Below are positions 16,187 through 44,845 of a DNA stretch of 64,000 nt, piece by piece (position 1 is the stretch's first letter; the number at the start of each line of letters is the position of its first letter). The DNA comes from Synechococcus sp. CBW1107. GTDB lineage: Bacteria; Cyanobacteriota; Cyanobacteriia; PCC-6307; Cyanobiaceae. The notes below the pieces were generated by a model. It was not told the DNA's origin. It saw nothing but the letters and a program-made list of their open reading frames with translations, and did not search any database. Both the position numbers and the translations under genes were made by a program. Location of the stretch: contig NZ_CP064908.1 in NCBI RefSeq assembly GCF_015841355.1, forward strand, positions 372,001 through 436,000. The letters run 5' to 3'.

Positions 16187-17154
16187 AAGGAATCGCTGGT
16201 TTAAGCCTGTTGCTCTCTGGGGTGCTCAGCGTCCCGACCAGTGCGGCGCTGGCGCTGGACAACCCCCTTGGGGTCAGCCAGGGAGCGTCCAATCCTGAAT
16301 TGATCGCCCGGGGGGGTGGAGGTGGCCGTGGAGGTGGCGGAAGCCGTGGTGGAGGCGGGGGAAGTCGTGGCAGCGGCGGAAATCGTGGAGGCGGGAGCCG
16401 AGCCCGCACAGGCCTGAGCGGAGGCGGCGGCAGCCTGAACCGCGGCAACAGCCGCCCCAGCGGCGGCTGGAGCAACAGGGTGTCGTCACCCTCGGCGCGG
16501 CCATCGATCCAGCGGCCATCCGGCTCGAACTCCCTCGGCCGTGGTGACATCAATCGTGGCGGCAACCGGAATCTCAACCTGGACAGCAACAGATCCATCA
16601 ACCGCGATGTCAACCGGAACATCAATCGCGATGTCAACCGGACTGTGAATCGCGATGTCAACCGGAACATCAACCGCGATATCAACCGGAATGTCAACCG
16701 AAACGTGAACTGGGACACGAATCGGCGTGTCAACATCAACAATGTCAATGTGAACGCCGGCTGGGCTCGTCCGGGCTGGGGTGTGGCACGGCCTTGGAAT
16801 GCGGGCTGGTACGGCGGCTGGTCCTCTCCCACCTGGGGATGGTGGGGGGCAAGAGCCGCGACATGGGGGGTGGCCTCCCTGGCTACGGCAGCCGTCATCA
16901 ACAACGCTGTCGACAACGCCCTGAGCAGTAACAGCACCTACATCGTGGTTCCCAACACCGATTACCAGCTGCTCTACGGCTCGGTACAACCCTCCGGCTC
17001 CCAGGGGGTCAGCTTCGCCGTCACCGCCGATGGCAGCACCTACCAGCTCTCGGCCGATTGCAACCGGGGCCTGCTGGATGGCCGTGAACCGAGCAGCTCC
17101 GCCGAAGCAGAGCTGCTCAATGCAGCCTGTCAGGTGGCCTTCGGCTCTGTCTGA
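16183..17154 (+). CDS. Secreted Gly-rich, Asn/Arg-repeat protein
   Basis: Exported protein of 323 residues, start overlapping the previous stop. After a signal peptide (to about residue 24) comes a Gly/Arg/Ser-rich tract (about 45-85), a spacer, then roughly fifteen short N-R-(D)-V/I-N repeats (about 125-190, for example NRDVNRNINRDVNR). A Trp/Gly-rich hydrophobic stretch follows, then a compact C-terminal domain (ADGSTYQLSADCNRGLLDG). The repeats alternate Asn and Arg with Val/Ile, so a beta or disordered polycation is likely. A cell-surface role is inferred from export and composition only. Confidence 0.75.
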   Translation: MKGIAGLSLLLSGVLSVPTSAALALDNPLGVSQGASNPELIARGGGGGRGGGGSRGGGGGSRGSGGNRGGGSRARTGLSGGGGSLNRGNSRPSGGWSNRVSSPSARPSIQRPSGSNSLGRGDINRGGNRNLNLDSNRSINRDVNRNINRDVNRTVNRDVNRNINRDINRNVNRNVNWDTNRRVNINNVNVNAGWARPGWGVARPWNAGWYGGWSSPTWGWWGARAATWGVASLATAAVINNAVDNALSSNSTYIVVPNTDYQLLYGSVQPSGSQGVSFAVTADGSTYQLSADCNRGLLDGREPSSSAEAELLNAACQVAFGSV

Positions 17155-22307: not shown

Positions 22308-24461
22308 ATGACCACTTCACACCACCCGCCTGATGGCGGAGGGACTTTGAGCGAGGAGCAACAGGCGATTGTTCACTCTCGCTCTGACTCATTGCGCGTG
22401 CTGGCTTTTGCCGGTACGGGCAAGACGACCACGCTGCGGGCCTATGCCCGGGAACGACCCCAGCAACGAATGCTGTATCTGGCGTTCAATCGCACGGTGG
22501 CGGCAGAAGCCCGGGAGAGCTTCCCGACCAACGTCACCTGCTCCACGATTCACGCCCTGGCTTACCGGGCTGTGGGGTATCGCTATCGGCACCAGCTGCG
22601 GGGCAGCATCCGCGCCAACCAGGCGGCAATTGCCCTTGGGCTGGACCAGCGCAACCACAAGGAGCTGGTGCTGGCTGATCGTGCTCTCAAGGTGCTGCAG
22701 CATTTCCTCTGCAGCGGCTGCAACGATCTGGCTGAGTTCACCGGGGCGGTCAGTTACCACCAGCGCTACCCCAGGCAGGCTCTGCAGGCTGCATCACGGC
22801 TGTGGGAACTGATGGTGGATCCCACGTCGTCCTGCGTGCCGATGCTGCATGACGGCTACCTGAAGCTGTATCAGCTCTCGAGGCCCCAGCTCAGATTCGA
22901 TGTGATCCTGCTGGATGAAGCCCAGGACACCAATCCCGTCACGCTGAAGATCCTCGCAGATCAGAGCTGCAGCAGGGTGTTCGTAGGGGATCCTCACCAG
23001 CAGATCTATCAGTTCCGCCATGCCACCAACGCCATTGCCAGCGCTGGTCACTGGGACGAGCTGGCCCTGACCGGCAGCTTCCGCTTTGGTGCTGCCATCG
23101 CTGAGGCCGCCAACCACCTGCTGGCCTTGAAAGGGGAGCCTCGCCAGCTGAGGGGTCTGCGCAGCACATCACCACCTGAGACCAGCGCGTTCATTGCCCG
23201 TGGCAATGCCGCGATCTACAAGCAGGCCCTGGCACTGGCCCACCAGGGCAAGCAGACCTACTGGTGCGGCGGAATCGACGGGTACCGCCTCCAGCAGCTG
23301 TTGGATCTCTGCCACCTCAAGCGTGGGGAGCAGTCACAGATCCGTGATCCGTTCATCGCTGCCTTCAAGGGCTACGGGGAACTGTGCAGCTACGCCGAAG
23401 CGCAAGACGTGCGCGACATCAAGGCCTGGTGCCATCTGATCGATCGTCATGACCACTGGCAGGGCATTCCCGAGGAGATCGCTGGGATCAAGCGGATGGC
23501 CGTCAGTTCCATCACGCCCGACGTGATGGCCCTGACCACAGCCCACAAGTCCAAGGGCCTGGAATTCGGCAGCGTGACCCTGGCTGATGACTTCCATGGC
23601 CACGACCTCCTGCATGGAGCCCCCACTGACCTCAAGAACTGGGAGTACGGCCCCCAGCAGGCGCCTGCTCTCTGGGATGAGCAGGGCTATAGAGGCGGGG
23701 TGGTGCTGCCAGAGGAGGAGCTCAACCTGCGCTATGTCGCTTTGACGCGGGCTCAGCAGAGCTGCCGCTCCCCGCAGTGGTCAGCACCGATGTTTGCTGA
23801 CCTGGCCAACTACGTGAAGGACTACCCGAGATTCCTGCTGGTGGATTCCCATGAGGTTCTCAAGCCGAAGCTAACCGCAGGTACCCCATCCGGTCTGAAG
23901 CAGGGTGATGAAGCTGTGATGGTGACTGGGAAGGAAGTGAGCTCTGTGCAACAGGGCCATGACCCTGAGCCTGCCCTGAGCGGTGAATCAGCAGGGACTG
24001 AACCCGTTGCAGAGTTCGCTACTCAAGCTGGCCAGACGATCACGCTGAGCTGGTTTCAGGGCGCCATCGATCCCAGCCACGTCCATGTGGTCACCAGTCA
24101 CTACGAGCGCAGGTATCCGGCCCTGAACTGGGACTGGCTGCTGCTGGAGTTCTCGGAGCTGCGGGTGGTGAGCAGCGATCCTGCTGGTGCTGTTGCGGTC
24201 ATGCTGGGGAAGAACCAGTTGGCCTCAGCGCAGCAACTCGTTGAGCGATTCCTGATGGACGTGGGTCTGGTGCTGCAACCCGACGACGTGGTTGCTCTCC
24301 AGGCTCCCGAGGGAACGAATGGTGAGTGCCCCGTGGAGGAGTTGGTTGAAGCTGACGAGTGCACCAAGGAAGGGGCAACGGGCAGTGAAGCCGTCGAGGA
24401 GCCTGCACGGCGTTCCATGAGGAAGCGGCTGGCCAAGTTCTGGATGCGGGTGGGTCAGTAA
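22308..24461 (+). CDS. UvrD/Rep-like (FBH1-like) DNA helicase
   Basis: Superfamily 1 3'-5' DNA helicase of 717 residues. Motifs in order: Walker A LAFAGTGKTTTL (about 33-43), Ia YLAFNRTVAAEA and TIHALAYRA, motif II LLDEAQDTNP, motif III VGDPHQQIYQFR, motif IV SFRFGAAIA, motif V TAHKSKGLEFGSV, motif VI LRYVALTRAQQ. The last 200 residues are a less conserved extension. ATG 22308 has a clear AAGGAG ribosome site. It is divergent from the HUH-like gene; together they resemble a rolling-circle Rep plus helicase pair. Alternatively it is a general repair or anti-recombination helicase carried by the island. Confidence 0.92.
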   Translation: MTTSHHPPDGGGTLSEEQQAIVHSRSDSLRVLAFAGTGKTTTLRAYARERPQQRMLYLAFNRTVAAEARESFPTNVTCSTIHALAYRAVGYRYRHQLRGSIRANQAAIALGLDQRNHKELVLADRALKVLQHFLCSGCNDLAEFTGAVSYHQRYPRQALQAASRLWELMVDPTSSCVPMLHDGYLKLYQLSRPQLRFDVILLDEAQDTNPVTLKILADQSCSRVFVGDPHQQIYQFRHATNAIASAGHWDELALTGSFRFGAAIAEAANHLLALKGEPRQLRGLRSTSPPETSAFIARGNAAIYKQALALAHQGKQTYWCGGIDGYRLQQLLDLCHLKRGEQSQIRDPFIAAFKGYGELCSYAEAQDVRDIKAWCHLIDRHDHWQGIPEEIAGIKRMAVSSITPDVMALTTAHKSKGLEFGSVTLADDFHGHDLLHGAPTDLKNWEYGPQQAPALWDEQGYRGGVVLPEEELNLRYVALTRAQQSCRSPQWSAPMFADLANYVKDYPRFLLVDSHEVLKPKLTAGTPSGLKQGDEAVMVTGKEVSSVQQGHDPEPALSGESAGTEPVAEFATQAGQTITLSWFQGAIDPSHVHVVTSHYERRYPALNWDWLLLEFSELRVVSSDPAGAVAVMLGKNQLASAQQLVERFLMDVGLVLQPDDVVALQAPEGTNGECPVEELVEADECTKEGATGSEAVEEPARRSMRKRLAKFWMRVGQ

Positions 24462-25842: not shown

Positions 25843-27693
25843 ATGCCCGCAACACTGACACCCAGTCAACTTGAGAAATACTCCTCTCGCTTGAAGGGGG
25901 AGAGCTTGCGCCCAGGCCTGCCGATCCGATGGCAGCAGATGAGGGCGATTCGCAAGTTGGCCACTGATGGCTCAAGGAAAGCTGTAAAGGCATTGGCTGA
26001 AGCGGTGGAGCATGAATTAGCACTTGAGGAGCAAACCCGCGACCACTTGATGGTGGTGCTTGGATCCTTACGCCTCTCACTAACCATCGACGCACTTTGC
26101 ACCCAGTGGATGGAGACTGGAGAGGCAGGTGATGGGCTCGCCGGCCTGCTGCTCAAGAGTGGACATGCGCCCGCCGATCTCGCCGAGCGAGCCATGTTCC
26201 TGCTGTTGATCGGTGAGCTGGAGCGCTACGAGGAGCTGGATCTCGATGGCACGCTACTGGCCAAGGCCCTTACCGCTGCCAGTCCAGGAGTGCGCAAACG
26301 CCTGGCAGCAGCAGCGGCGGCGGCGGGCCGTGCTGAATGGCTTCAGGCGATGGAGTATGCGAAACCTCTCGAAGCCTTTAACACCGACGACTGGACCACG
26401 ACAGTGCAGGTGCTGAGGCGAGCGGGCGATCGGCAAGCTCTCTTGCAGTGGGCGATGAAAGCACCACCGCTCCACAGCCGATCACTGCTGCAGGCGATGG
26501 CAGCTGGAACACCACCAGAGGAACAAGACGAGCCGGTGGTGGCGGCCCTGCTGGCTTTCAGCCAAAGCCTTCCAGCAGCAAAGGTGGATGAACTACAGCC
26601 TGATCGGTGCACCCGCACCCTTGAAGGCCATTCCAACTACGTGTACTCAGTGGCGTTGTCAGCGGATGGCCGCTGCCTCGCCTCTGCCAGCGGTGACAAG
26701 ACGATTCGTTTGTGGGACCCGGCCAGCGGCGCCTGCACCCGCACCCTCGAAGGCCATTCGAACAGGGTGTACTCAGTGGCGTTGTCAGCGGATGGCCGCT
26801 GCCTCGCCTCTGCCAGCGGTGACAAGACGATTCGTTTGTGGGACCCGGCCAGCGGCGCCTGCACCAGCATCCTCAAAGGCCATTCGAACAGTGTGTACTC
26901 AGTGGCGTGGTCAGCGGATGGCCGCTGCCTCGCCTCTGGCAGCTCTGACAAGACGATCCGTTTGTGGGACCCGGCCAGCGGCGCCTGCACCGGCACCCTC
27001 AAAGGCCATTCCGAAACTGTGTGGTCAGTGGCGTGGTCAGCGGATGGCCGCTGCCTCGCCTCTGGCAGCTCTGACAAGACGATCCGTTTGTGGGACCCGG
27101 CCAGCGGCGCCTGCACCGGCACCCTCAATGGCCATTCCGAAACTGTGTGGTCAGTGGCGTGGTCAGCGGATGGCCGCTGCCTCGCCTCTGGCAGCTCTGA
27201 CAAGACGATCCGTTTGTGGGACCCGGCCAGCGGCGCCTGCACCGGCACCCTCAATGGCCATTCCGAAACTGTGTGGTCAGTGGCGTGGTCAGCGGATGGC
27301 CGCTGCCTCGCCTCTGGCAGCTCTGACAAGACGATCCGTTTGTGGGACCCGGCCAGCGGTGCCTGCACCCTCAAAGCCCATTCCAGCGTGCGCTCAGTGG
27401 CGTGGTCAGCGGATGGCCGCTGCCTCGCCTCTGGCAGCTGGGATAACACGATCCGGCTCTGGAGAAATGATGTCGCAGAGTTGTTGTTGACCCCGTTGGC
27501 CAGCGTTGATGGCACGTATTGGCAGCTGCTGGCGGCTTACCAACAAGACCAGAGCCAGCAGCCCGAATGGGTGCGAGCCTGGCTCGATTTCATCACCGCC
27601 CTCGGCGCGGTGATCCGTCGCTTTGATGTGGGCGTGGATGAGGCCAGCGTTCAGCTGGATTCCTCACCCTTCGAGATCGAAATCGATGGCTAA
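25843..27693 (+). CDS. WD40 propeller protein 1 of the chaperone cassette
   Basis: Protein of 616 residues from ATG 25843 (TTG 25840 is an alternative). Residues 1-245 are a helical, HEAT-like domain (QLEKYSSRLKGESLRP, WQQMRAIRKLATDGSRKAV). Seven WD40 blades follow (about 262-541), each near 42 residues: GHS-x-x-V-x-SVA-SADGRCLAS-x-S-DKTIRLWDPASGACT. Seven blades make one complete propeller. The last 60 residues (WVRAWLDFITALGAVIRRFDV) are shared with the second WD40 protein at 36229. Blades 4-6 are almost identical at protein and DNA level, implying recent duplication or gene conversion. The Hsp70-like gene starts 17 bases later. I infer a recognition or scaffold role; the ligand is unknown. 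Confidence 0.88.
   Translation: MPATLTPSQLEKYSSRLKGESLRPGLPIRWQQMRAIRKLATDGSRKAVKALAEAVEHELALEEQTRDHLMVVLGSLRLSLTIDALCTQWMETGEAGDGLAGLLLKSGHAPADLAERAMFLLLIGELERYEELDLDGTLLAKALTAASPGVRKRLAAAAAAAGRAEWLQAMEYAKPLEAFNTDDWTTTVQVLRRAGDRQALLQWAMKAPPLHSRSLLQAMAAGTPPEEQDEPVVAALLAFSQSLPAAKVDELQPDRCTRTLEGHSNYVYSVALSADGRCLASASGDKTIRLWDPASGACTRTLEGHSNRVYSVALSADGRCLASASGDKTIRLWDPASGACTSILKGHSNSVYSVAWSADGRCLASGSSDKTIRLWDPASGACTGTLKGHSETVWSVAWSADGRCLASGSSDKTIRLWDPASGACTGTLNGHSETVWSVAWSADGRCLASGSSDKTIRLWDPASGACTGTLNGHSETVWSVAWSADGRCLASGSSDKTIRLWDPASGACTLKAHSSVRSVAWSADGRCLASGSWDNTIRLWRNDVAELLLTPLASVDGTYWQLLAAYQQDQSQQPEWVRAWLDFITALGAVIRRFDVGVDEASVQLDSSPFEIEIDG
26626..27465 (+). repeat. Seven 126-bp WD40 blade repeats
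   Basis: Units begin at 26626, 26752, 26878, 27004, 27130, 27256 and 27376; all are 126 bases long except the sixth (120) and the partial last one. Units 4-6 look almost identical base for base. Changes concentrate at the two codons after GHS (NY, NR, NS, ET, ET, ET) and at the ASASG/ASGSS site. Confidence 0.9.
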
Positions 27694-27710: not shown

Positions 27711-29309
27711 ATGCCTGGTCGTCTTGCGGTTGATTTCGGCACCTCCAACACCGTGCTCGCCCTCTGGGATGCCGATCGCCAGGAGGCCAGCACCTATGCC
27801 CCGGCGGCCTACCGCAGCCTTTATCCCCAGGGCGATGGCACCACGTCTGTAATCCCCTCCCTGATCCACTACGGAGAAGATCAGCACCAATGGCTGGGGC
27901 AGCAAGTGCTGCAGCGCAACCTGCTCAAGCATCCGCATACCCTGCGCTGGGCCAAGAGCTACATCGGCCGGGGAGGCACTAGCCGGGGTCGCCGCATCGG
28001 GGAACGGCAGGTGAGCTTTCACCAGGCCGGCCACGACTTTCTCACCACCCTGCTCAGGCTCACCCGCGAGGATCTGGCCCTCGCGGATGAGGAGATCGCC
28101 CTCACGGTTCCAGTCGACAGTTACGAGCACTACGCCGCCTGGCTGGGGGACGCCGCCTCTGCGGCAGGCCTGCCCCGCTACCGGCTGATTGATGAGGCCT
28201 CAGCTGCTGCACTTGGCTATGGCGCCCACATCCAGGCTGGTGACTGCTACCTAGTGTTTGATTTCGGCGGTGGCACACTCGATGTCGCCGTGGTGCTGAT
28301 CGAGCCGGAGGACACTGCCGCAAATGGCCGCCGCTGTCGGATCCTCGCCAAGGCTGGTGCGCAGATCGGCGGGATCAGCCTCGATAAGCTGCTCTTCCAG
28401 GATGTGCTGCTGCAAACCGGACGGGCCGACACTGATCCGCTGATCCAGACCCTCAGCGGCGCCATCCTCGCCGAATGCGAGCAGGCCAAGATCCAACTCA
28501 CCAGCCAAAGTGAGGCAGCGATCACCCTGCTGGACCCTGATACCGGCCAGGTGCTGGAGGCGGCCTGGAGCCGCAGCCGCTTCGAGGAACTGATGGATGA
28601 GGCTGGTCTGATCGGAGGGATCGATCGTCTCATCCGCCAGGCGCTCAACCGCGCCCGGGATCGCGGCTACAGCGAGGAGCAGATCAAATCGGTGCTGCTG
28701 GTGGGCGGCAGCAGCCAGATCCCGGTGGTGCGCACCACCCTGGCGCGGATCTTCGGGAAGGACCGGCTCTTCGCGGATCGCCCGATCGATGCGGTGGCCA
28801 GAGGGGCAGCGGCCTTTGTCGGTGGAGTCGATTTCTACGACCACATCCAGCACAGCTACGCCATTCGTCACCGCGATCCAAAAACCGGCCACTGGACCTA
28901 CCGTACGCTCGTCGAGGCCGGTAGCCCCTACCCCAGTGCTGAACCGATCGCCCATCTCACTGTCAAAGCCTCCTTCGACGGGCAGGACCAGTTGGGCCTG
29001 GCGATCTTTGAACTTGGCGAGCAACTCCAATCCACAGGAGCTGCAGCCTCCACCGAGCTGGTGTTCGATCCAGCTGGTGGTGCCCGCATCCTGGCGGTGG
29101 CAACGGCTGAGCAGGAACGACGCAGCCATTTCTGGATGAATGAGAACTCCCCCACCTTCCTCACCACCAGCCAGCCTGTGAATGCCGGGGACGCTTGTTT
29201 TCGAATCAGCTTCGGGATCGATGGCAACAAGCGCTTGTTGCTCACCGCCCGCGAGCTGGCCAATGGTCGCCTGCTCTACAGCGACTATCCCGTGATCCAG
29301 CTGAGCTGA
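27711..29309 (+). CDS. Hsp70-like ATPase of the WD40/AAA cassette
   Basis: Hsp70/actin-fold ATPase of 532 residues. Phosphate-1 loop DFGTSNT (residues 8-14), a VDSYEHYAAW segment, phosphate-2 FDFGGGTLDVA (about 183), and adenosine motif LLVGGSSQIPVV (about 330). The region after about 385 is a short beta substrate-binding-like part (PYPSAEPIAHLTVKASFDG); the helical lid and EEVD-like end of DnaK are missing (DnaK is about 100 residues longer). A GrpE-like factor encoded in the same cassette suggests a private nucleotide-exchange partner. Substrate delivery by the WD40 proteins is inference. Confidence 0.92.
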   Translation: MPGRLAVDFGTSNTVLALWDADRQEASTYAPAAYRSLYPQGDGTTSVIPSLIHYGEDQHQWLGQQVLQRNLLKHPHTLRWAKSYIGRGGTSRGRRIGERQVSFHQAGHDFLTTLLRLTREDLALADEEIALTVPVDSYEHYAAWLGDAASAAGLPRYRLIDEASAAALGYGAHIQAGDCYLVFDFGGGTLDVAVVLIEPEDTAANGRRCRILAKAGAQIGGISLDKLLFQDVLLQTGRADTDPLIQTLSGAILAECEQAKIQLTSQSEAAITLLDPDTGQVLEAAWSRSRFEELMDEAGLIGGIDRLIRQALNRARDRGYSEEQIKSVLLVGGSSQIPVVRTTLARIFGKDRLFADRPIDAVARGAAAFVGGVDFYDHIQHSYAIRHRDPKTGHWTYRTLVEAGSPYPSAEPIAHLTVKASFDGQDQLGLAIFELGEQLQSTGAAASTELVFDPAGGARILAVATAEQERRSHFWMNENSPTFLTTSQPVNAGDACFRISFGIDGNKRLLLTARELANGRLLYSDYPVIQLS

Positions 29310-29337: not shown

Positions 29338-29727
29338 ATGTCGCACTTCACCACCATCCGCACCCGTGTTGTGGAAGCCAGCCATCTGCAGAAGGCCCTG
29401 GTTGATCTCGGGTACACCGTGCAGCACGGGCCCATCACGGTGAATGGCTACCAGGGCAACACCACCAAGGCCGATCTCAAGATTGCCACTGCCAGCAAGG
29501 GCTACGACATCGGCTTCCGCCGCACCAATTCCAATGATGGCTATGAGCTGGTAGCCGACTGGTGGGGGATTCGTGGCATTGAGCAGAAAGACTTCGTGCG
29601 GCAATTGCATCAGCGCTACGCCTACCATGCCGCCCAGGAGGCTCTGATCGCAGAAGGATTCAGTTTGGTGGAAGAAGGCCAACAGCAGGACGGCACCCTT
29701 CACCTCGTGCTGCGACGCAGCATCTGA
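29338..29727 (+). CDS. DUF1257 (Ycf35-like) protein
   Basis: Protein of 129 residues matching the DUF1257/Ycf35 family: MSHFTTIRTRVVEASHLQKAL at the start, GHGP-like VQHGPITVNGYQG, ADLKIATASKGYDIGFRR, and YAYHAAQEALIAEGF. Ycf35 is a chloroplast/cyanobacterial protein of unknown function. Here it is part of a mobile cassette, so it is probably a paralogue of the chromosomal housekeeping copy. It is commonly linked with DUF2997, as here. Confidence 0.85.
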   Translation: MSHFTTIRTRVVEASHLQKALVDLGYTVQHGPITVNGYQGNTTKADLKIATASKGYDIGFRRTNSNDGYELVADWWGIRGIEQKDFVRQLHQRYAYHAAQEALIAEGFSLVEEGQQQDGTLHLVLRRSI

Positions 29728-29775: not shown

Positions 29776-29997
29776 ATGGAGATCCAGGAAATCGATGTCT
29801 TCGTCGCCCCCGATGGCACCGTGAAGCTTCAGGTTCGTGGGGTCAATGGCGGACAATGCCTCAGCCTCACCAAAGGGCTTGAAACCCTCCTTGGTGGAGA
29901 GATCAGCAGTCGGGAGATGACACCCGATGCCGATGCGGATGATCAAGGCGTGAGCTGGCAGGTGGATGACACCCAGGCAATTGGCGGCGGCTGGTAG
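29776..29997 (+). CDS. DUF2997-like small protein
   Basis: Protein of 73 residues: MEIQEIDVFVAPDGTVKLQVRG then GGQCLSLTKGLETLLGGEISSREMTPD. This is the DUF2997 pattern (I/V-x-V-x-I-x-PDG-x-V, single Cys then TK-LE--LG). It lies between DUF1257 and the AAA+ gene with 2 bases to the next start, so translational coupling is likely. Function unknown; the family usually sits beside DUF1257. Confidence 0.75.
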   Translation: MEIQEIDVFVAPDGTVKLQVRGVNGGQCLSLTKGLETLLGGEISSREMTPDADADDQGVSWQVDDTQAIGGGW

Positions 29998-29999
29998 CG

Positions 30000-30488
30000 A
30001 TGTCGTTTCAACAGGAACTGGATCTCTGCCTGCGGGCTCGCTTCACGTTGATCGTGCTGATCACTCCGGAGGAGGAACGTGCCGTTGCAGAGGTGCGCAA
30101 GGCCTGTGAGACGAACAAGCGCCCCTGCCTGAGCTGGGATGCGGGTGATGGCTTCGAGGCAATCGCGAATTGGACAGGCAGCGTTCCAACAGCGCCCGAC
30201 CCGAAAACCGCTCTGGAGAAGATCGACCAGCACGATGGCGATGCCCTCTTCATCCTGCGCGATTTCCACGACATCTGGAGCAATGCCCAGCTCAAGCGCA
30301 AGCTGCGCAACCTTGCCCAGCGTTTCCGCTACACTCGTAAATCTATCCTGATCACCACACCCAGCCCCAAGCTGCCGGCGGAACTCAAGGATGTTGCGGT
30401 GGTGGTGGAGTTCCCCCCTCCCGACACCGCCGAGCTTGAGACGGTACTCAACGGCCTCACGACCACTCCCGGAGTGCAGGTGCAACTC
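30000..30488 (+). pseudogene. Ycf46-like AAA+ ATPase, N-terminal part (IS-disrupted)
   Basis: First 163 codons of an AAA+ gene broken by IS256 copy 1. It shows the Ycf46-type N-terminal P-loop-like domain (ARFTLIVLITPEEERAV, ALFILRDFHDIW, KSILITTPSPKLPAELKD). The 8-base target TGCAACTC is duplicated at both ends of the insert; removing the insert and one copy joins codon 163 in frame to 34536 and restores about 507 residues, normal for Ycf46. As the sequence stands, translation runs 14 codons into the IS and stops at 30530. Confidence 0.88.
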
Positions 30489-30681
30489 GGTAGCGCCCCT
30501 CCGAGTGGTGTAACTCAGGAGGTCCTGTGACCCTCTCCGGAGGGTGAACAGGAGCAGTCAGGGGATGACTGCTTGGAAGCTGATTGCGCAGCTCCATTGA
30601 TCCATTATGAACCCTGATCGCTGAATTGGCAACTCAGCGATCGATGTGTTCTGTGTAGATCGAGGTAGAAGCTGGTGCGCT

Positions 30682-31398
30682 TCAGCTGATGGTTGCAGCC
30701 GGCTGGGCGTTCGGATCTGCATCGGTGAGCTCCAAGGGCTCTTCTGGCTCTGGGATCTTGGCCATGGTGGCCTCAGAGAAGAAGCGGCGACGCTCCAGCT
30801 GCCATTCCTCCTGCTGCTCCAGCAGCTGGCTGCCCACCAGGCGCACGATCGCTGGATCATTGGGGAAGATGCCGACCACGTTGGTGCGGCGTTTGATCTC
30901 CTTGTTGAGGCGCTCGAGCGGGTTGGTGCTCCAGACCTTGCGCCAGTGCTCCTGGGGGAAGTGCAGGAAGGCCAGCACGTCGTCCCGGGCGGCTTCCATC
31001 ACGGGCACGGCGCCGGGGAACTGCTTGCGCAGCATCTCGGTGACCCGCTGCCAGTGGGCGCGCACCTGATCTGGAGCCTGGATCACGAACACCGCTTTCA
31101 TGGCAGCGGCCACCATGTCCTGGCCGGCCTTGGGCACATGGCTCAGCAGGTTGCGCAGGAAGTGCACCCGGCACCTCTGCCAGCTACTGCCCTGGAACAT
31201 CCGCTTGATCGCTGCCGTCAGGCCCAGGTGGGCATCCGAGATCACCAGGCGGGTGCCGTCGAGGCCACGCTCCTTGAGTGAGCCCAGGAACTGACGCCAG
31301 AAGCCCTCCGCCTCGCTGTCGCCCACGGCAATGCCGAGAACTTCGCGGTAGCCGAGGGCATTGATGCCGATCGCCACCACCACCGCCCGCGACACCAC
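30682..31398 (-). pseudogene. IS256 transposase, C-terminal part
   Basis: Carries the second catalytic Asp (VISDAHLG) and the Glu (NPLERLNKEIKRR) of the mutator-type DDE transposase. It is translated identically to the intact transposase of copy 2. Cut off from its N-terminus by the IS21 element, so not functional. Confidence 0.9.
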
Positions 31399-31562
31399 TG
31401 TCAAGCGACATCCGCTTTTGGTCCTCCGGCGACACGAAAACTGGTCCACCTGATGGCTTGCTGATGGGGGCCTTACGGCTGCCCTTGGATCGGTGTTTCA
31501 TCGGTGGGTGTCGTGTCGTTGTTGTTGGCTGCGGCATCTGTGCCGCTTGATCCGGGTTCCCC

Positions 31563-32429
31563 TTAGGCCTTCTCACCGGGCGGTGGTGGCCGTAGGCCAG
31601 CGCTGTCCGGTGAGGAGGAACCGCCCGCCTGCGGGCGGATCAGGCCGCTGCGCCGCTTCTCCCTGAGCCGGTAGCTGTCGCCCCGGATCGTCAGCACGTG
31701 GCTGTGGTGCAGCAGCCGGTCGAGGATCGCTGTGGCGACCACCTGATCGCCAAACACCTCGCCCCATTCCATGACGGGGCGGTTGGAGGTGATCAGCACG
31801 CTGCCGCGCTGGTAGCAGCGGGAGATCAGCTGGAAGAACAGGTACGCAGCGTTCGGCTCCAGCGGCAGGTAGCCCAGCTCATCGATGATCAGCAGCCGGG
31901 TTTTGGCGTACTGCGTCAGCCGGCCCTCCAGGGCGTGCTGCGCCTGGGCCTTGGCCAGGGCGCTGATCAGCTCCATGGCACCGACGTACTGGACGCTGTG
32001 ACCGAGACGCACCGCCTCCCGGCCCAGCGCCACCGCCAGGTGGGTCTTGCCCACACCCGGCGGCCCGAGCAGCAGCAGGGTGTCGCCGTTGGCCACCCAG
32101 CGGCAGGTGGCCAACTCACGGATCTGGGCCGGGTCGATCGACGGCTGGGCCTCGAAATCGAACGCTTCCAGCGTGCGCACATAGGGGAAGCGCGCCAGCC
32201 GCAGCGCCATCTCCATCCGCAGCTGGTCTTTGCGTGCCACCTCGGCCGCGCACAGCCAGGCCAGGGCCTCGCGCAGGTTCATCTCCCGCCTTGCCGCTTC
32301 CTCCAGCAGCGCATCGAGGCGGTCGCGGATTGCTGGGAGCCGTAGGCGGGTGAGCATTGCCTCCAGCTCCTCGGTCGGTACCGGTGGTATCGCCGCTGTG
32401 GATCGGTTGCGTGGGTTGGTGGGACTCAT
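31563..32429 (-). CDS. istB: IS21 helper ATPase IstB
   Basis: AAA+ transposition helper of 288 residues. Walker A GPPGVGKTHLAVALG, Walker B LLIIDELGYLP, sensor LITSNRPVMEWGEVFGD. It starts in an ATGA overlap with istA. IstB assembles on target DNA and activates IstA. The reading frame is intact. Confidence 0.94.
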   Translation of the reverse strand: MSPTNPRNRSTAAIPPVPTEELEAMLTRLRLPAIRDRLDALLEEAARREMNLREALAWLCAAEVARKDQLRMEMALRLARFPYVRTLEAFDFEAQPSIDPAQIRELATCRWVANGDTLLLLGPPGVGKTHLAVALGREAVRLGHSVQYVGAMELISALAKAQAQHALEGRLTQYAKTRLLIIDELGYLPLEPNAAYLFFQLISRCYQRGSVLITSNRPVMEWGEVFGDQVVATAILDRLLHHSHVLTIRGDSYRLREKRRSGLIRPQAGGSSSPDSAGLRPPPPGEKA

Positions 32430-33778
32430 GCCGCCACCTCCCCGATCAGCTCGGCATAAACCGCCAGAGGCCGGGCCAGTTCAGAGCTGCGGACCGGGCG
32501 CTGCTCCTGATCACGTCTTGCGTTGCCATCCCGCAGCGATCGCTCCGCCTCGCGCTGCTGCCGTTGCGGCAGCAGGCCCTCCCAATGGCCGTCGATCACC
32601 TGGCGGCTGCGGCTACCGGGCCGCTGGCGCCTGTGCTCAGCGACGATCCGGCCGCCGTGGCGGATCAGTACCTGTTGATCGCGCACCAGCACGCTCACCC
32701 GCTGACGGATCAGCGCCTGCGGCGCCGAGTACCAGTTCGCCTCCACCTCCACGCAGCAGTCGCTGTGCACGATCCGCACCAGCTCCCGCTCCGCCAGGAA
32801 CGACGGCTTGGCCTCCAGCGGCTGCAACGCCTGGGCTTCTGCCCGCACAAACCGGTCCAGCGGCGCCTCGCCGGTGGTGCCGTGCACCCGCAGGTCGGCC
32901 ACCTCGCGGGTCCAGCGCACCAGATGGGCCTCAAACTCCGCCCAGCTGCTGAACTCCCGCCCAGCGATGGCGTTCCTCTTGACGTACGCCACCCCACGCT
33001 CGTCCTTGCCTTTGGTTCTGGCCCGGTACGGCCGACAGGCACGGGGCTTGAACCCCCAGTAACGGGCGAACTCCTCCAGCCGCTCGGCAAAAACCAGGAT
33101 GTTGCGCTCGGGATCGTGCTGGCTCACCAGCGCACGGGCGTTATCCACCAGCACCTCCTGCGGTACCCCGCCCCAGTGGCGGAAACCCTCCTCCAGGGCC
33201 TGGAGCCAGTGGTCCTGCTTCTCGCTGCGGAATGCCCGCACCAGCAGCCGGCGCGAGTACCCCAGGGTGAGCACCGCCAGGTGCACCCGCACCCGCTCGC
33301 CGCCAATGCTCACCAGGCACTGGCCAAAGTCTGCCTGCAGTTGCCGGCCCGGCGGGGTCTCAAACCGCACCGTCGCCAGGGCCGCGTTGCGCAGCTCCCG
33401 CCGCCACGGCTCCACGGCACGCTCCACTGTCCGCAGGCTCACCTCGATTCCCTTCTCACTGGCCAGCTCCTGCCGCACCACATCGGCATTGCCGCGGTGG
33501 GCCATAAACCGCTGCCGCAGCCACTCCCGTTGGCCATCGAGAACCGTGTTGCGGCAGGGCTTCCCGTAGGGCTGCCAGCCACCCTGCCGCAGGTACTTGC
33601 GCACCGTCTCCGGTGAACAGCCCAGTTCTTTAGCAATCCGCCTCCGGCCCCAACCTGCTGCCGATAGCCGTCGCATCGCCTCCACGTCCTGAGGGGTCTG
33701 CACAGCTGTCTCCAGAACCATCGGCTCCAGAGATGGCGCCCCTGCGCTGCCCTTGTCGTCCTGCCTGGCTCGCTCCAC
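32426..33778 (-). CDS. istA: IS21 transposase IstA
   Basis: DDE transposase of 450 residues. An N-terminal helix-turn-helix (RRIAKELGCSPETVRKYL) precedes the retroviral-integrase core: QADFGQCLV (first Asp), EVLVDNARALV (second Asp) and TKGKDERGVAYVKRNA (Glu). Frame intact, so the nested IS21 is probably still mobile. Confidence 0.94.
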   Translation of the reverse strand: MERARQDDKGSAGAPSLEPMVLETAVQTPQDVEAMRRLSAAGWGRRRIAKELGCSPETVRKYLRQGGWQPYGKPCRNTVLDGQREWLRQRFMAHRGNADVVRQELASEKGIEVSLRTVERAVEPWRRELRNAALATVRFETPPGRQLQADFGQCLVSIGGERVRVHLAVLTLGYSRRLLVRAFRSEKQDHWLQALEEGFRHWGGVPQEVLVDNARALVSQHDPERNILVFAERLEEFARYWGFKPRACRPYRARTKGKDERGVAYVKRNAIAGREFSSWAEFEAHLVRWTREVADLRVHGTTGEAPLDRFVRAEAQALQPLEAKPSFLAERELVRIVHSDCCVEVEANWYSAPQALIRQRVSVLVRDQQVLIRHGGRIVAEHRRQRPGSRSRQVIDGHWEGLLPQRQQREAERSLRDGNARRDQEQRPVRSSELARPLAVYAELIGEVAA

Positions 33779-33832
33779 GGGGTGGACCAGTTTTCGTGTC
33801 GCCTCCGGACCAGTTTTCGCTGTCGCCTGACA

Positions 33833-34377
33833 ACCACCTGCATATTTCGGCCCAGGCGGCCGTGGAGGTAGGTGGCGTCGAGGTAGACGTAGGGAAAGCG
33901 GGCATGGTCAAGCGGCCGGCCCAGAAAGGCTTTCACCTGCTCATCGAGCCCCTGGCAGATGCGGCTCACCTCCGATTTGGAGATGCCGCTGGCCCCGCCC
34001 AGCGCCTCCACCAGGGCGTCGACCTTGCGGGTGGAGATCCCGCCGGTGTAGGCCTCCATCACCACGGCGTAGAGCGCCTTGTCCACCCGGCGGCGTGGCT
34101 CCAGCCAGCTGGGAAAGAAGCTGCCCTGCCGCAACCTGGGAATGGCCAGGCTGAGGTCGCCCACCTGGGTGGTGAGCAGCCGCTCCCGGTAGCCGTTGCG
34201 ATGGGTGGAGCGCTGATCGGGGCAGCGCTCATGGAGTTGAGCGCCCGTGAGGGCAGAAACCTCGGCTTCCAGCAGGTCCTGGAAACCCCGGCGCACGATC
34301 TCTGGGATCAGGGCGCCAGCGGTGGTGCCCTCCATGAGCTGGCTCAGCTCGGAGGCGCCACTATGGGTGAGGGTCAT
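33833..34377 (-). pseudogene. IS256 transposase, N-terminal part
   Basis: First 180 codons of the transposase, up to GRNMQVV, including the first catalytic Asp (YVYLDATYL). The frame then runs into IS21. Matches residues 1-180 of copy 2. Confidence 0.9.
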
Positions 34378-34535
34378 GGTCTGTGTTCGGTTTGGTGGTA
34401 GTTCTCCGAACAGGGTCACAGACCGGCCCACCCATTGCCACAGCTGAAATCTGAGGGAGGTGAGCCGTCAGCCCCGGCTACGCCGGGGCTGATCCTCCTG
34501 AGTTACACCACTTGCTGGGACGCCGCTTGCAACTC

Positions 34536-35570
34536 ACTCCACTGGGTCGCGAGAAGTTGGTTCAAGCAGCCCTTGGCCTCACCAGCGCCCAGGCACAGCG
34601 AGTGTTCTCCAAGGCGATCGTGCGCGATGGCCTGCTCAATGACCAGGACATCGATCTGGTGACGGAGGAGAAGAAGCAGATCATCCGCGAAAGCCAGGCC
34701 CTTGAGTTCTATGCCGCCAGCGAAAGCCCCGCCGATCTAGGAGGCTGCGAAGTGCTGAAGGATTGGTTGCGGCTCAGGGAGCGAGCATTCAGCCAGGAAG
34801 CTCGCGACTATGGCCTGCCATCACCACGTGGCATGGCCCTGATCGGTATCCCTGGTACCGGAAAAAGCCTCACCGCCAAGATGATCGGCGGCCTCTGGCA
34901 CCTGCCGCTGCTGCGACTTGATGTGGGCTCCCTGTTCGGGTCATTGGTTGGGGAATCAGAGCAACGCACCCGTCAGGCGTTGCAGATGGCTGAAACCGTT
35001 TCGCCCTGCATCCTCTGGATCGATGAGATGGAGAAGGCCTTCGCAACAGGCGGCCTTGATGGTGGCACCAGCACCAGGGTGTTCGGCACCATCCTCACCT
35101 GGATGCAGGAGAAGACCGCCCCTTGCTTCGTGGTAGCGACCGCCAACGACATCAGCAGCCTGCCGCCGGAGCTGCTGCGGCGCGGCCGTTTCGATGAGAT
35201 CTTCTTCCTTGATCTCCCCACACTCTCCGAACGCCGCGAAATCCTCTCCGTGCATCTGCGCAAACGCCAGCGCATTATTCACGACTTTGATCTCGATGGC
35301 CTCTCCCGCCTCTCGGAGGGCTACGTGGGTGCTGAGATCGAGCAGGCGATTGTTGATGCGATGTACATCGGCTTCAACCAGGAGCGCGAGTTCAACTCCG
35401 ATGACATCTCCCGTTCCCTCGATCGCCAGGTGCCGCTCTCGGTCTCGCAGCGGGAGCGCATCGGAGCCCTGCGGGCCTGGTTGCAGGAAGGCCGGGCCCA
35501 GTCGGCCTCGTTCCGCGAGAGCTTCGATGCGGTGCAGCAGTTCGTGCCGCTCGACATCCGCCAGCCCTGA
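34536..35570 (+). pseudogene. Ycf46-like AAA+ ATPase, C-terminal part
   Basis: The catalytic AAA+ module of the interrupted gene: Walker A GIPGTGKSLTAK, Walker B ILWIDEMEKA, sensor 1 VVATANDISSLPPELL, and the arginine-bearing RRGRFDEIFF, followed by the helical lid. Sequence between residues is complete to the stop, so a truncated ATPase could still be made from an internal start (for example the codons around 34512-34620). Without the N-terminal domain, function is doubtful. The GrpE-like gene begins 41 bases later. Confidence 0.88.
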
Positions 35571-35611: not shown

Positions 35612-36229
35612 ATGCTGCGACGCTTTCGCCACTGGCTCTCGCGCTTTGCCGATCAGCCACCCCAGCCGCACGAAGCTCCAGGCCATAACAATGCCGCAGC
35701 GCTGCAGCACAAAGAGCTCAACCAAGAGCGTACCCTGCGACTGGCGGCGGAGAGTGAGCTGCAGAAACTGCGGCTCGACCTCCAACAAGCCGAGCAACGG
35801 CTGGCTCAACTCCAGGCTGATCTCCAACGCCAAGACCATCAGCAGCACGATGTACTCAGCGAGTCGCTCAACGCCCACCTCGAGGAGTTACTGAGGCCCC
35901 TGGCAACGCCATTTGCTCAGCTTCTCACCCAGCAGCATCTGATTGAGCAGCAGGGTAAAGAACTGAGCACCAAGGATCTGCTTGCCACCAGCCGCCGCCT
36001 CTGGGAGGGACTCGCACCAGCTGGACTGGAAGCAGTGGAGAGCATCGGATCAGTGGTGGCCTTCGATCCAGATCGTCATCAGCCACTCAGCCAGGCCACG
36101 AGCCTCATCAATGGAGAATCAGTGAGGGTGAGGATTCCGGGAATCACATTCAGGGGGCGAATTCTCAAGACTGCCGCAGTGGAGGATATCGCTCTTGACG
36201 ATGCCAGTGTTGTAGCTACAACGGCTTGA
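35612..36229 (+). CDS. GrpE-like nucleotide exchange factor
   Basis: Protein of 205 residues. Residues about 30-75 are a Gln/Leu-rich coiled coil (QLAQLQADLQRQDHQ). The C-terminal domain matches the GrpE beta domain: SIGSVVAFDPDRHQPL and INGESVRVRIPGITFRGRILKTAAVE. GrpE proteins release ADP from Hsp70; here the natural partner is the Hsp70-like ATPase of the same cassette. The stop overlaps the start of the second WD40 gene by one base. Confidence 0.85.
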   Translation: MLRRFRHWLSRFADQPPQPHEAPGHNNAAALQHKELNQERTLRLAAESELQKLRLDLQQAEQRLAQLQADLQRQDHQQHDVLSESLNAHLEELLRPLATPFAQLLTQQHLIEQQGKELSTKDLLATSRRLWEGLAPAGLEAVESIGSVVAFDPDRHQPLSQATSLINGESVRVRIPGITFRGRILKTAAVEDIALDDASVVATTA

Positions 36230-38580: not shown

Positions 38581-40180
38581 GGTAGCGCCCCTCCGAGTGG
38601 TGTAACTCAGGAGGTCCTGTGACCCTCTCCGGAGGGTGAACAGGAGCAGTCAGGGGATGACTGCTTGGAAGCTGATTGCGCAGCTCCATTGATCCATTAT
38701 GAACCCTGATCGCTGAATTGGCAACTCAGCGATCGATGTGTTCTGTGTAGATCGAGGTAGAAGCTGGTGCGCTTCAGCTGATGGTTGCAGCCGGCTGGGC
38801 GTTCGGATCTGCATCGGTGAGCTCCAAGGGCTCTTCTGGCTCTGGGATCTTGGCCATGGTGGCCTCAGAGAAGAAGCGGCGACGCTCCAGCTGCCATTCC
38901 TCCTGCTGCTCCAGCAGCTGGCTGCCCACCAGGCGCACGATCGCTGGATCATTGGGGAAGATGCCGACCACGTTGGTGCGGCGTTTGATCTCCTTGTTGA
39001 GGCGCTCGAGCGGGTTGGTGCTCCAGACCTTGCGCCAGTGCTCCTGGGGGAAGTGCAGGAAGGCCAGCACGTCGTCCCGGGCGGCTTCCATCACGGGCAC
39101 GGCGCCGGGGAACTGCTTGCGCAGCATCTCGGTGACCCGCTGCCAGTGGGCGCGCACCTGATCTGGAGCCTGGATCACGAACACCGCTTTCATGGCAGCG
39201 GCCACCATGTCCTGGCCGGCCTTGGGCACATGGCTCAGCAGGTTGCGCAGGAAGTGCACCCGGCACCTCTGCCAGCTACTGCCCTGGAACATCCGCTTGA
39301 TCGCTGCCGTCAGGCCCAGGTGGGCATCCGAGATCACCAGGCGGGTGCCGTCGAGGCCACGCTCCTTGAGTGAGCCCAGGAACTGACGCCAGAAGCCCTC
39401 CGCCTCGCTGTCGCCCACGGCAATGCCGAGAACTTCGCGGTAGCCGAGGGCATTGATGCCGATCGCCACCACCACCGCCCGCGACACCACCTGCATATTT
39501 CGGCCCAGGCGGCCGTGGAGGTAGGTGGCGTCGAGGTAGACGTAGGGAAAGCGGGCATGGTCAAGCGGCCGGCCCAGAAAGGCTTTCACCTGCTCATCGA
39601 GCCCCTGGCAGATGCGGCTCACCTCCGATTTGGAGATGCCGCTGGCCCCGCCCAGCGCCTCCACCAGGGCGTCGACCTTGCGGGTGGAGATCCCGCCGGT
39701 GTAGGCCTCCATCACCACGGCGTAGAGCGCCTTGTCCACCCGGCGGCGTGGCTCCAGCCAGCTGGGAAAGAAGCTGCCCTGCCGCAACCTGGGAATGGCC
39801 AGGCTGAGGTCGCCCACCTGGGTGGTGAGCAGCCGCTCCCGGTAGCCGTTGCGATGGGTGGAGCGCTGATCGGGGCAGCGCTCATGGAGTTGAGCGCCCG
39901 TGAGGGCAGAAACCTCGGCTTCCAGCAGGTCCTGGAAACCCCGGCGCACGATCTCTGGGATCAGGGCGCCAGCGGTGGTGCCCTCCATGAGCTGGCTCAG
40001 CTCGGAGGCGCCACTATGGGTGAGGGTCATGGTCTGTGTTCGGTTTGGTGGTAGTTCTCCGAACAGGGTCACAGACCGGCCCACCCATTGCCACAGCTGA
40101 AATCTGAGGGAGGTGAGCCGTCAGCCCCGGCTACGCCGGGGCTGATCCTCCTGAGTTACACCACTTGCTGGGACGCCGCT
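38581..40180 (-). mobile_element. IS256-family element, copy 2, intact
   Basis: 1600 bp, same ends as copy 1, flanked by the 8-bp duplication CTACCCGA (38573-38580 and 40181-40188). All shared parts translate identically to copy 1, so one copy arose very recently from the other. Confidence 0.94.
38774..40030 (-). CDS. IS256-family (mutator-type) transposase
   Basis: Transposase of 418 residues from ATG 40030; an in-frame upstream start gives 436. Catalytic residues: Asp in YVYLDATYL, Asp in VISDAHLG, Glu in NPLERLNKEIKRR. The mutator signature CRVHFLRNLLSHVPK is present. The only full copy of this transposase in the window, so it could also mobilise the interrupted copy 1. Confidence 0.95.
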   Translation of the reverse strand: MTLTHSGASELSQLMEGTTAGALIPEIVRRGFQDLLEAEVSALTGAQLHERCPDQRSTHRNGYRERLLTTQVGDLSLAIPRLRQGSFFPSWLEPRRRVDKALYAVVMEAYTGGISTRKVDALVEALGGASGISKSEVSRICQGLDEQVKAFLGRPLDHARFPYVYLDATYLHGRLGRNMQVVSRAVVVAIGINALGYREVLGIAVGDSEAEGFWRQFLGSLKERGLDGTRLVISDAHLGLTAAIKRMFQGSSWQRCRVHFLRNLLSHVPKAGQDMVAAAMKAVFVIQAPDQVRAHWQRVTEMLRKQFPGAVPVMEAARDDVLAFLHFPQEHWRKVWSTNPLERLNKEIKRRTNVVGIFPNDPAIVRLVGSQLLEQQEEWQLERRRFFSEATMAKIPEPEEPLELTDADPNAQPAATIS

Positions 40181-40315
40181 CTACCCGAGCGCCATACCCC
40201 TCGCCGCCACATCTCAGCCTCTCGCTCGTCACCCAGTTAGCCCCCTCTGCCAGGAAAGATGACGCCTCTTCATCCCGACCATTTCAACCACCAGGGGGCC
40301 TGATGGAATCGATCG

Positions 40316-40822
40316 ATGCGTCCTTACAGCGAGGCCGTCAAGGCTGATGTCCGCCGGCGGATGGGGCCACCTCATCGCCAGAGCGTGGCGGAGATTGCCC
40401 AGGAACTGGGGATCCACGTGATCACCCTCTACGCTTGGCGCAAGGGCTGGCGGCTGGAGGGAGAGGTGGTGCCGGCATCGCAGAAGGACCCTGAGGGCTG
40501 GAGCGCTGCTGACAAGTTCACGGTGGTGCTGGAGACCGCTGGGCTGAACGCCACCGAGCTCAGCGCCTATTGCCGGGAGCGGGGTCTGTACCCGGAGCAG
40601 GTGGAGCGCTGGCGGCAGGCATCGCAGGATGCCAACGAGAAGCCGGTACTGACGCTGAAAGAACAGAGGGAGCTGGAGAAGCTCCGCGCCCAGGACCAGC
40701 GCGAGATCAAACGGCTCCAGAAGGAACTGCGCAAGAAGGAGAAGGCCCTGGCAGAAGCGGCGGCGCTGCTGCTGGTCACAAAAAAGATGCAGGCCCTCTG
40801 GGGAGAGGCCGAGGAGGACTGA
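40316..40822 (+). CDS. IS3-family transposase OrfA
   Basis: Protein of 168 residues: helix-turn-helix (SVAEIAQELGIHVITLYAWRKGW) at the start and a long Lys/Glu coiled coil at the end. Near its 3' end the run A6G (40780-40786) is a classic -1 slippery site, and orfB lies in the -1 frame. An OrfAB fusion transposase by programmed frameshifting is therefore expected for the family. Confidence 0.85.
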   Translation: MRPYSEAVKADVRRRMGPPHRQSVAEIAQELGIHVITLYAWRKGWRLEGEVVPASQKDPEGWSAADKFTVVLETAGLNATELSAYCRERGLYPEQVERWRQASQDANEKPVLTLKEQRELEKLRAQDQREIKRLQKELRKKEKALAEAAALLLVTKKMQALWGEAEED

Positions 40823-41908
40823 CCTCCGCGGCTGATCGCCGGAGGGCACTGGAGATCCTCGATGACGCTGTGGCCGCAGGGGCTACAGCGGCGCGGGTGG
40901 CGGAGCGCATGGCCATCAGCCTGCGCACCCTGCAGCGCTGGCGGCGTCAGTTCGCGGGTGATGGGGACGGTGGGGACCGCCGTAAAGGCAGCGCCCGCCA
41001 CGTGGCCCATCGGCTGAGCCAGCAGGAGCGGCAGCAGATCCTTGCGGTCTGCAACAAGCCGCAGTACGCCTCGCTGCCGCCGGCGCAGATCGTGCCCGCC
41101 CTGGCCGACCAGGGTGAGTTCGTGGCCTCCGAGAGCAGCTTCTACCGCGTGCTCCACGCCCACCAGCAGGTACAGCACCGCGGACGGGCCAGACCGCCAC
41201 AGGAGGCGCGTCCGGTGCCCAGGCGGCGTGCTGATGGGCCCAATCAGCTCTGGAGCTGGGACATCACCCTACCTGCCCACCAGCGTGCGGGGCATATGGC
41301 TCTACCTCTACCTGGTGGTCGACGTCTGGAGCCGCAAGATCGTCGCCTGGGACGTCCACGAGCGCGAGGATGCCCAGCTGGCCGCGGATCTGATCAGCAG
41401 GGCCTGCATCAGGGAGCGCATCAGCAAGCAGCGCCAGCGCCGGTTGATCCTGCACGCCGACAACGGCAGCGCCATGCGCGCCGCCACGCTGGAGGTGCGG
41501 CTGGAGGAGCTGGGGGTACTGCGCTCCTTCTCCAGGCCACGGGTGTCGAACGACAACCCCTACTCCGAGGCGCTGTTCCGCACGGCCAAATACCGGCCCG
41601 ACTACCCCAGTCGGCCCTTTACCAGCAAGGAAGAGGCCTGCCAGTGGGCGGCGGCATTCGTGCACTGGTACGTGCATGAACACCGCCACAGCGCCATCCG
41701 GTTCGTGACCCCGCAGCAGCGGCACAACGGTCAGGCCCCGGCCATCTGCCACCAGCGCACGCTGGTCTATGAGCAGGCCAGAGAGCACCATCCCAGGCGT
41801 TGGTCACGATCCGTGCGCTGCTGGCAACAACCCGCCGTTGTCTGGATCAATGAACCGCCTGATGACACAACAGCCGAGGAGGAGTTACTCTTTCATCAGG
41901 TGGCCTGA
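40820..41908 (+). pseudogene. IS3-family transposase OrfB, frameshifted
   Basis: Helper helix-turn-helix (ISLRTLQRWRRQF) and integrase core. The frame is right up to NQLWSWDIT; then one extra C near 41270 moves the rest (YLPTSVRGIWLYLYLVVDVWSRKIV, LHADNGSAM, second half of the core) into the +1 frame. Two halves of one transposase are thus separated by a single-base shift. Either a real mutation or a sequencing error. Confidence 0.8.
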
Positions 41909-41986
41909 ATAGGCGCCAACCGGCGACATCTTTCCTGAAAGTCACCGACCACCCTGGCCTGGGCTTACCCAGTTCTTGCATTTATC

Positions 41987-42997: not shown

Positions 42998-43119
42998 ACG
43001 CCCCCGGAGTACGGAGCTACTGTGCGACTCTGATCTTAAGGGCACCTCGAAAAATCGTAAGACCGCTTGATAACGTCCAGATTTAGATTATACTAGGCCA
43101 TACCGATTACATACTTTCT

Positions 43120-43144
43120 ATGGGCCAGCGAGGTTTCTGGGACG
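43120..43144 (+). pseudogene. IS5 transposase N-terminal stub
   Basis: ATG plus seven codons (MGQRGFWD) of the IS5 transposase left of the IS66 insertion. Removing IS66 and one CTGGGACG copy joins it in frame to 44846. Confidence 0.8.
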
Positions 43145-44837: not shown

Positions 44838-44845
44838 CTGGGACG

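Follow-up and report, generated by a model that had tools for sequence, protein, structure and literature searches.

A WD40 propeller with near-identical blades beside Hsp70, GrpE and AAA+ genes in Synechococcus: a possible recognition adaptor

WD40 propellers built from near-identical blades are common in cyanobacteria, and their targets are largely unknown. One criterion for recognizing a recently amplified WD40 propeller is a set of consecutive blades with a median identity above 60% (PMC9218822). In the NWD genes of the fungus Podospora, diversifying selection acts on repeat codons 7, 9, 25 and 27, each pair of which flanks a conserved position (PMC1805685). The gene described here, WD40-1, lies in a stretch of 64,000 nucleotides from Synechococcus sp. 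CBW1107 (NZ_CP064908.1, positions 372,001 to 436,000), which is called the window below. A first-pass annotation had likened its blades to the recognition repeats of fungal HET/NLR genes. The gene and its repeat units are as follows.

25843 to 27693, plus strand: WD40-1 gene, ATG at 25843, about 616-617 amino acids
26608 to 27480, plus strand: array of seven WD40 units (TRF and base-by-base alignment)
26608, 26734, 26860, 26986, 27112 and 27238, plus strand: starts of units 1 to 6, 126 bp each
26986 to 27363, plus strand: units 4 to 6, differing at 1-2 bases of 126
27364 to 27480, plus strand: unit 7, shortened to 117 bp (39 codons)

The WD40-1 array and its protein

TRF describes the array at 26608-27455 as 6.8 copies of a period of 126 with 94% matches, and together with base-by-base alignment this confirms the original observation of near-identical blades in a seven-unit array. 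The reported 126-base repeat holds for units 1-6 but not for the 117-bp unit 7, which is also the most diverged unit (73-78%), and so the spacing is not uniform. Units 4-6 are almost identical even at silent sites, just as had been noticed: units 4 and 5 are one base apart (a replacement at codon 6), units 5 and 6 are one base apart (a silent change at codon 41), and units 4 and 6 are two bases apart. These three units are the youngest duplications. Units 1 and 2 form a second close pair, with five differences. Among units 1-6, replacement variation falls at codons 3, 4, 6, 10, 11, 13, 17, 27 and 29, and silent variation at codons 5, 9, 33 and 41. The changes had been assigned to the two residues after GHS and to the ASAS/ASGS site; codons 10-11 and 27 do vary, but so do codons 3, 6, 13, 17 and 29. 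A search of the rest of the genome with the array gave no other copy: the paralogue matched at 68%, and one further match spanned 30 bp.

The WD40-1 protein consists of a helical N-terminal domain (about residues 1-250), a seven-bladed propeller (about residues 256-542), and C-terminal helices with an acidic tail that ends in FEIEIDG. AlphaFold2, run with four family sequences as input (mean pLDDT 83.6), predicts a helical solenoid at residues 8-243, a single closed propeller of 28 strands at residues 256-542 with the usual closing strand preceding unit 1, and C-terminal helices leading into a tail of low confidence. The model agrees with the earlier proposal that the seven blades form exactly one propeller. 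The closed-propeller WD40 fold is also indicated by PF00400, which matches in seven stretches (Pfam), and by comparison of the model with the seven-bladed 7big (TM 0.96 by target length). The top fold matches are seven-bladed WD40 domains, both designed and bacterial. Among solved structures, the highly repetitive Nostoc propeller 2ymu is the closest by sequence, and it is also among the best folds. The Pfam matches listed (the best 25 of 56) include no NACHT/STAND domain, and no cell-death domain was identified.

A paralogue of WD40-1 lies nearby:

about 36226/36229 to 38421, plus strand: WD40-2, N-terminal region and tail each 54% identical to those of WD40-1, blades diverged

Median blade identity is 0.82 in WD40-1 and 0.50 in WD40-2, in accord with the description of the paralogue at 36229 as strongly diverged. 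It is 0.29-0.33 in six cyanobacterial relatives with eight recognised blades; in four others no more than one blade can be recognised. At the DNA level, units 1-6 average 92% identity among themselves, compared with 58% for the blades of the paralogue and 63% for WD40-1 blades against WD40-2 blades; the helical domains of the two proteins are 54% identical. The blades of WD40-1 (82%) are thus far more alike than those of the paralogue (50%) or of the relatives (about 30%), which argues that the WD40-1 array was re-amplified or homogenised after the duplication that separated WD40-1 from WD40-2. The propeller was rebuilt recently, through tandem amplification of individual blades. With seven blades at a median of 0.82, WD40-1 lies well within the range of recently amplified propellers as defined above.

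The comparison of silent and replacement differences gave a different picture for the unit as a whole than for particular codons. The parsimony tree of the units, ((1,2),(3,(4,(5,6)))), carries 23 changes (18 replacement and 5 silent); conversion may have carried adjacent differences along together, and so not all of the 23 are independent. The neutral expectation for the unit is about 75% replacement, and the observed ratio fits neutrality (p=0.48). Positive selection over the whole unit was therefore rejected. To relate the changes to the Podospora repeats, we equated codons 7, 9, 25 and 27 of the latter with codons 11, 13, 29 and 31 here by motif, using spacing and the conserved V and D. 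Three of the four equated codons (11, 13 and 29) vary in WD40-1. Nine of the 23 changes fall on the four codons, where 2.2 would be expected (p=0.00015), and the rate of replacement at these codons is higher than the silent rate of the array (p=0.0016). The two repetitive propellers of Pseudanabaena (see below) lean towards the equated codons likewise (permutation p=0.017 and 0.066). The accumulation of changes at codons 11, 13 and 29 is suggestive of selection rather than proof of it, since the constraint of the scaffold in any WD40 protein also drives changes to the loops.

The cassette and its relatives

WD40-1 is the first of a run of genes on the plus strand, separated by short gaps, in the order WD40-1, Hsp70, DUF1257, DUF2997, Ycf46-like AAA+, GrpE and WD40-2.

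27711 to 29309, plus strand: Hsp70-family ATPase (Pfam HSP70, 5e-31), 17 bp after WD40-1
29338 to 29727, plus strand: DUF1257 (Ycf35-like) gene
29776 to 29998, plus strand: DUF2997 gene, 73 amino acids (Pfam DUF2997, 3e-14)
30000 to 30488, plus strand: 5' part of the Ycf46-like AAA+ ATPase gene, through the first copy of an 8-bp target duplication
30489 to 34527: IS256/Mutator-type element with a nested IS21-type element, splitting the AAA+ gene
31563 to 32429 and 32426 to 33778, minus strand: nested IS21-type genes istB and istA, respectively
34536 to 35570, plus strand: 3' part of the AAA+ ATPase gene (AAA domain, 2e-28)
35612 to 36229, plus strand: GrpE-like nucleotide exchange factor (Pfam GrpE, 5e-7), overlapping the start of WD40-2

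The Hsp70 is 52-60% identical to the Hsp70s of cassettes elsewhere, and the GrpE is 31-41% identical to its counterparts. A known defence system was rejected as an identification of the cassette: PADLOC gave no full-length match (the AAA domain resembles that of IetA, and the other matches were weak and partial), and NCBIfam gave no full-length match either. No description of the cassette was found in the literature searched, including work on Ycf46, DUF1257 and DUF2997. Upstream of the cassette, at 22308-24461 of the window, lies a gene for a UvrD-type helicase (717 amino acids) with moderate similarity to GajB-type helicases, for which no partner gene was identified. Further upstream, at 16596-16700, an open reading frame contains 4.4 copies of the 24-bp tandem repeat CATCAACCGCGATGTCAACCGGAA.

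The element within the AAA+ gene has imperfect terminal repeats and is flanked at 30481-30488 and 34528-34535 by the 8-bp target duplication TGCAACTC. When the two halves of the gene are joined at this duplication, the reading frame runs through 507 codons without interruption. Neither half has decayed, and the insertion therefore looks recent. With the AAA+ gene split, the cassette may be inactive in this strain; its machine is probably impaired. Immediately after WD40-2, on its downstream side, the same Mutator-type transposase gene is present in intact form. This copy belongs to a transposase cluster at 38774-45855 (the Mutator-type copy, an IS3-like pair, IS66 and a DDE transposase) that surrounds a gene for a MesX-like putative oxygenase at 41987-42997.

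The distribution of the cassette is sporadic. A survey of sampled genomes for the helical domain gave hits in one of nine from the genus, 3 of 400 from the family and 6 of 386 from the phylum; a profile search detected it in 11 of 367. The WD40-1 gene is absent from all eight other genus genomes examined. A closer homologue within the family (genome G369, locus L030) lies on a 5-kb contig, is broken into two frames and ends within the first blades. No relative was found in viral contigs, and the sole match in a contig scan was a Planctomyces MAG, limited to the WD40 part. Hsp70s more than 50% identical to that of the window occur in three other sampled genomes. The full set of Hsp70, GrpE, DUF1257, DUF2997, Ycf46-type AAA+ and adaptor (the WD40-1-like protein, named for the role proposed below) is present in the window and on a Pseudanabaena galeata plasmid, and nearly all of it in genomes G475 and G415. 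In G475, GrpE, Hsp70, DUF1257, AAA+ and adaptor genes form one run, in which a DUF2997-like frame separates DUF1257 from AAA+; the adaptor has no recognisable WD40 blade, and its tail end is still similar. G415 has the same partners except DUF2997, which was not identified there. G469 has AAA+, adaptor and GrpE genes, and G575 has GrpE and Hsp70. In the G469 adaptor gene (L031, 2807-2920), a TAA in frame directly precedes the conserved C-terminal tail, and the tail may be lost.

The plasmid, pPg_01 of P. galeata CCNP1313 (NZ_CP112875.1), carries GrpE, Hsp70, DUF1257, DUF2997 and AAA+ genes together with four adaptor paralogues.

L091, 14120-22430 and 30399-32603: the four helical/propeller paralogues
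L091, 27012-28585, between DUF1257 and DUF2997: HEC-02 gene pair (PADLOC E values 3e-148 and 4e-67 over gene length)

Three of the paralogues have N-terminal stretches in common, with 91-100% protein identity where aligned, and all four share the tail region (72-90%). Their propellers are mostly 16-70% identical to one another, and in two of the four the blades are highly repetitive (medians 0.62 and 0.68). The last paralogue is without the final tail residues. This constant-variable-constant pattern is the strongest evidence for the propeller as the exchangeable part. Across cassettes, the ends of the adaptor are conserved, and it is the propeller that has been exchanged, has decayed or was re-amplified. 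The HEC-02 pair is embedded in the plasmid operon, in one case only. HEC candidates were put forward on the basis of "guilt-by-embedding" in defence loci, and antiviral activity has been shown for several of them (PMC12988326); no specific statement on HEC-02 itself was found.

Proposed function and alternative explanations

These patterns are consistent with a model in which WD40-1, with its re-amplified blades, could well be a recognition adaptor of an Hsp70/GrpE and AAA+ remodelling machine, possibly a defensive one. The conserved helical domain and tail would dock the adaptor to the chaperone or ATPase, the upper face of the propeller would bind a client, and the Hsp70/AAA+ machine would unfold or remodel the bound client. 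A new binding face could arise by re-amplification of blades together with alteration of blade residues 11, 13 and 29. We infer the adaptor role for the Hsp70/AAA+ machine in the first place, and with less certainty that the cassette is a defence system, in which case the clients might be foreign (phage or plasmid proteins). The most far-reaching version is tentative and rather doubtful: the cassette would be a prokaryotic defence system of a kind not yet described, its Hsp70/GrpE and AAA+ machine directed by a family of adaptors whose ends stay constant and whose WD40 propeller is exchangeable. Blade re-amplification and upper-face substitutions would supply new specificities, and the system would be a chaperone-based counterpart in cyanobacteria of the fungal HET/NLR sensors.

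A serious rival, and a quite plausible one, is that the blades were recently amplified with no change in recognition, the loops varying as the least constrained parts. Highly repetitive WD40 proteins are widespread in cyanobacteria (PMC5587647, PMC9218822), the closest solved sequence is the highly repetitive 2ymu from Nostoc, and the 18:5 ratio of replacement to silent changes is neutral, all of which fits plain amplification. This explanation does not account as readily for changes that gather on the interaction codons and exceed the silent rate there (the p values of 0.00015 and 0.0016 above), nor for the constant ends and exchanged propellers of the Pseudanabaena members. The same turnover of propellers bears on an improbable third reading, that Ycf35/DUF2997/Ycf46-type factors with Hsp70/GrpE carry out housekeeping assembly of a photosynthetic or Fe-S complex, with the WD40 proteins scaffolding fixed clients. 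A ferredoxin gene adjoins DUF2997 and ycf35 in Synechocystis (PMC4284462), and DUF1257 is suspected of a role in photosynthesis (PMC13131479). However, the genome has a separate DUF1257/Ycf35 relative, 39.5% identical, and the cassette is sporadic and in one strain plasmid-borne.

The number of units could in principle be an assembly artefact, as near-identical units 4-6 are prone to collapse and long reads were needed for the Podospora WD40 arrays (PMC12222747). A miscount is very improbable here, given a single 3.2-Mb contig, an intact frame and seven blades that close one propeller. Diversification directed by a retroelement (DGR), or fed by silent blade cassettes at other sites in the genome, is scarcely credible and was rejected. 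DGRs do diversify sensors of bacterial conflict systems (PMC10907252), but the sole match to a reverse transcriptase is some 0.5 Mb distant, the genome is without a second array, donor blades or a template copy, and the changes are not limited to adenines.

If the adaptor reading is true, Hsp70 and AAA+ chaperones would be joined to a changeable recognition surface, and the purpose of highly repetitive WD40 propellers in bacteria would become testable. The WD40-1 family is a natural comparison set, with the same ends and the same cassette and with propellers that are decayed, diverged or freshly rebuilt.

Comparison with known systems

Like WD40-1, the Nostoc WRAP propeller (PDB 2ymu) is cyanobacterial and has seven near-identical 42-residue blades with few silent changes. 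In contrast to WD40-1, WRAP is part of a fusion with a STAND ATPase and has a TIR-STAND partner gene (PMC9218822); the WD40-1 propeller is instead joined to a helical solenoid and accompanied by Hsp70, GrpE and AAA+ genes. Hsp70 and GrpE together with superstructure-forming repeats recall the chaperone/NTPase conflict systems of multicellular bacteria, including GAP1-N2 (PMC7159879, which makes no mention of DUF1257 or Ycf46). No GAP1-N2 GTPase was found among the cassette genes, which have a Ycf46-type AAA+ with DUF1257/DUF2997 instead. The PADLOC candidate HEC-02 is embedded in the P. galeata copy of the cassette and is not part of the cassette in the window.

WD40-1 resembles the Podospora NWD/HET-D/HET-E proteins in its 42-residue repeats of high identity and in variation at codons 11, 13 and 29 (equated with Podospora 7, 9 and 25; PMC1805685). 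It differs from them in lacking a NACHT or HET domain and an excess of replacements over the whole unit, and in having seven repeats and one paralogue, as seen in one strain only. Membership in the NLR/HET group was rejected, as WD40-1 carries no NTPase domain and its N-terminus is a helical solenoid encoded beside Hsp70, GrpE and AAA+ genes. The fungal logic suggested in the first-pass annotation survives in part: selection over the whole unit and membership in the group fall away, while the young re-amplified propeller, the changes at codons 11, 13 and 29, and the constant ends with exchanged propellers in Pseudanabaena agree with it. Rather than describing membership, the HET/NLR analogy would fit the way in which a recognition surface could change.
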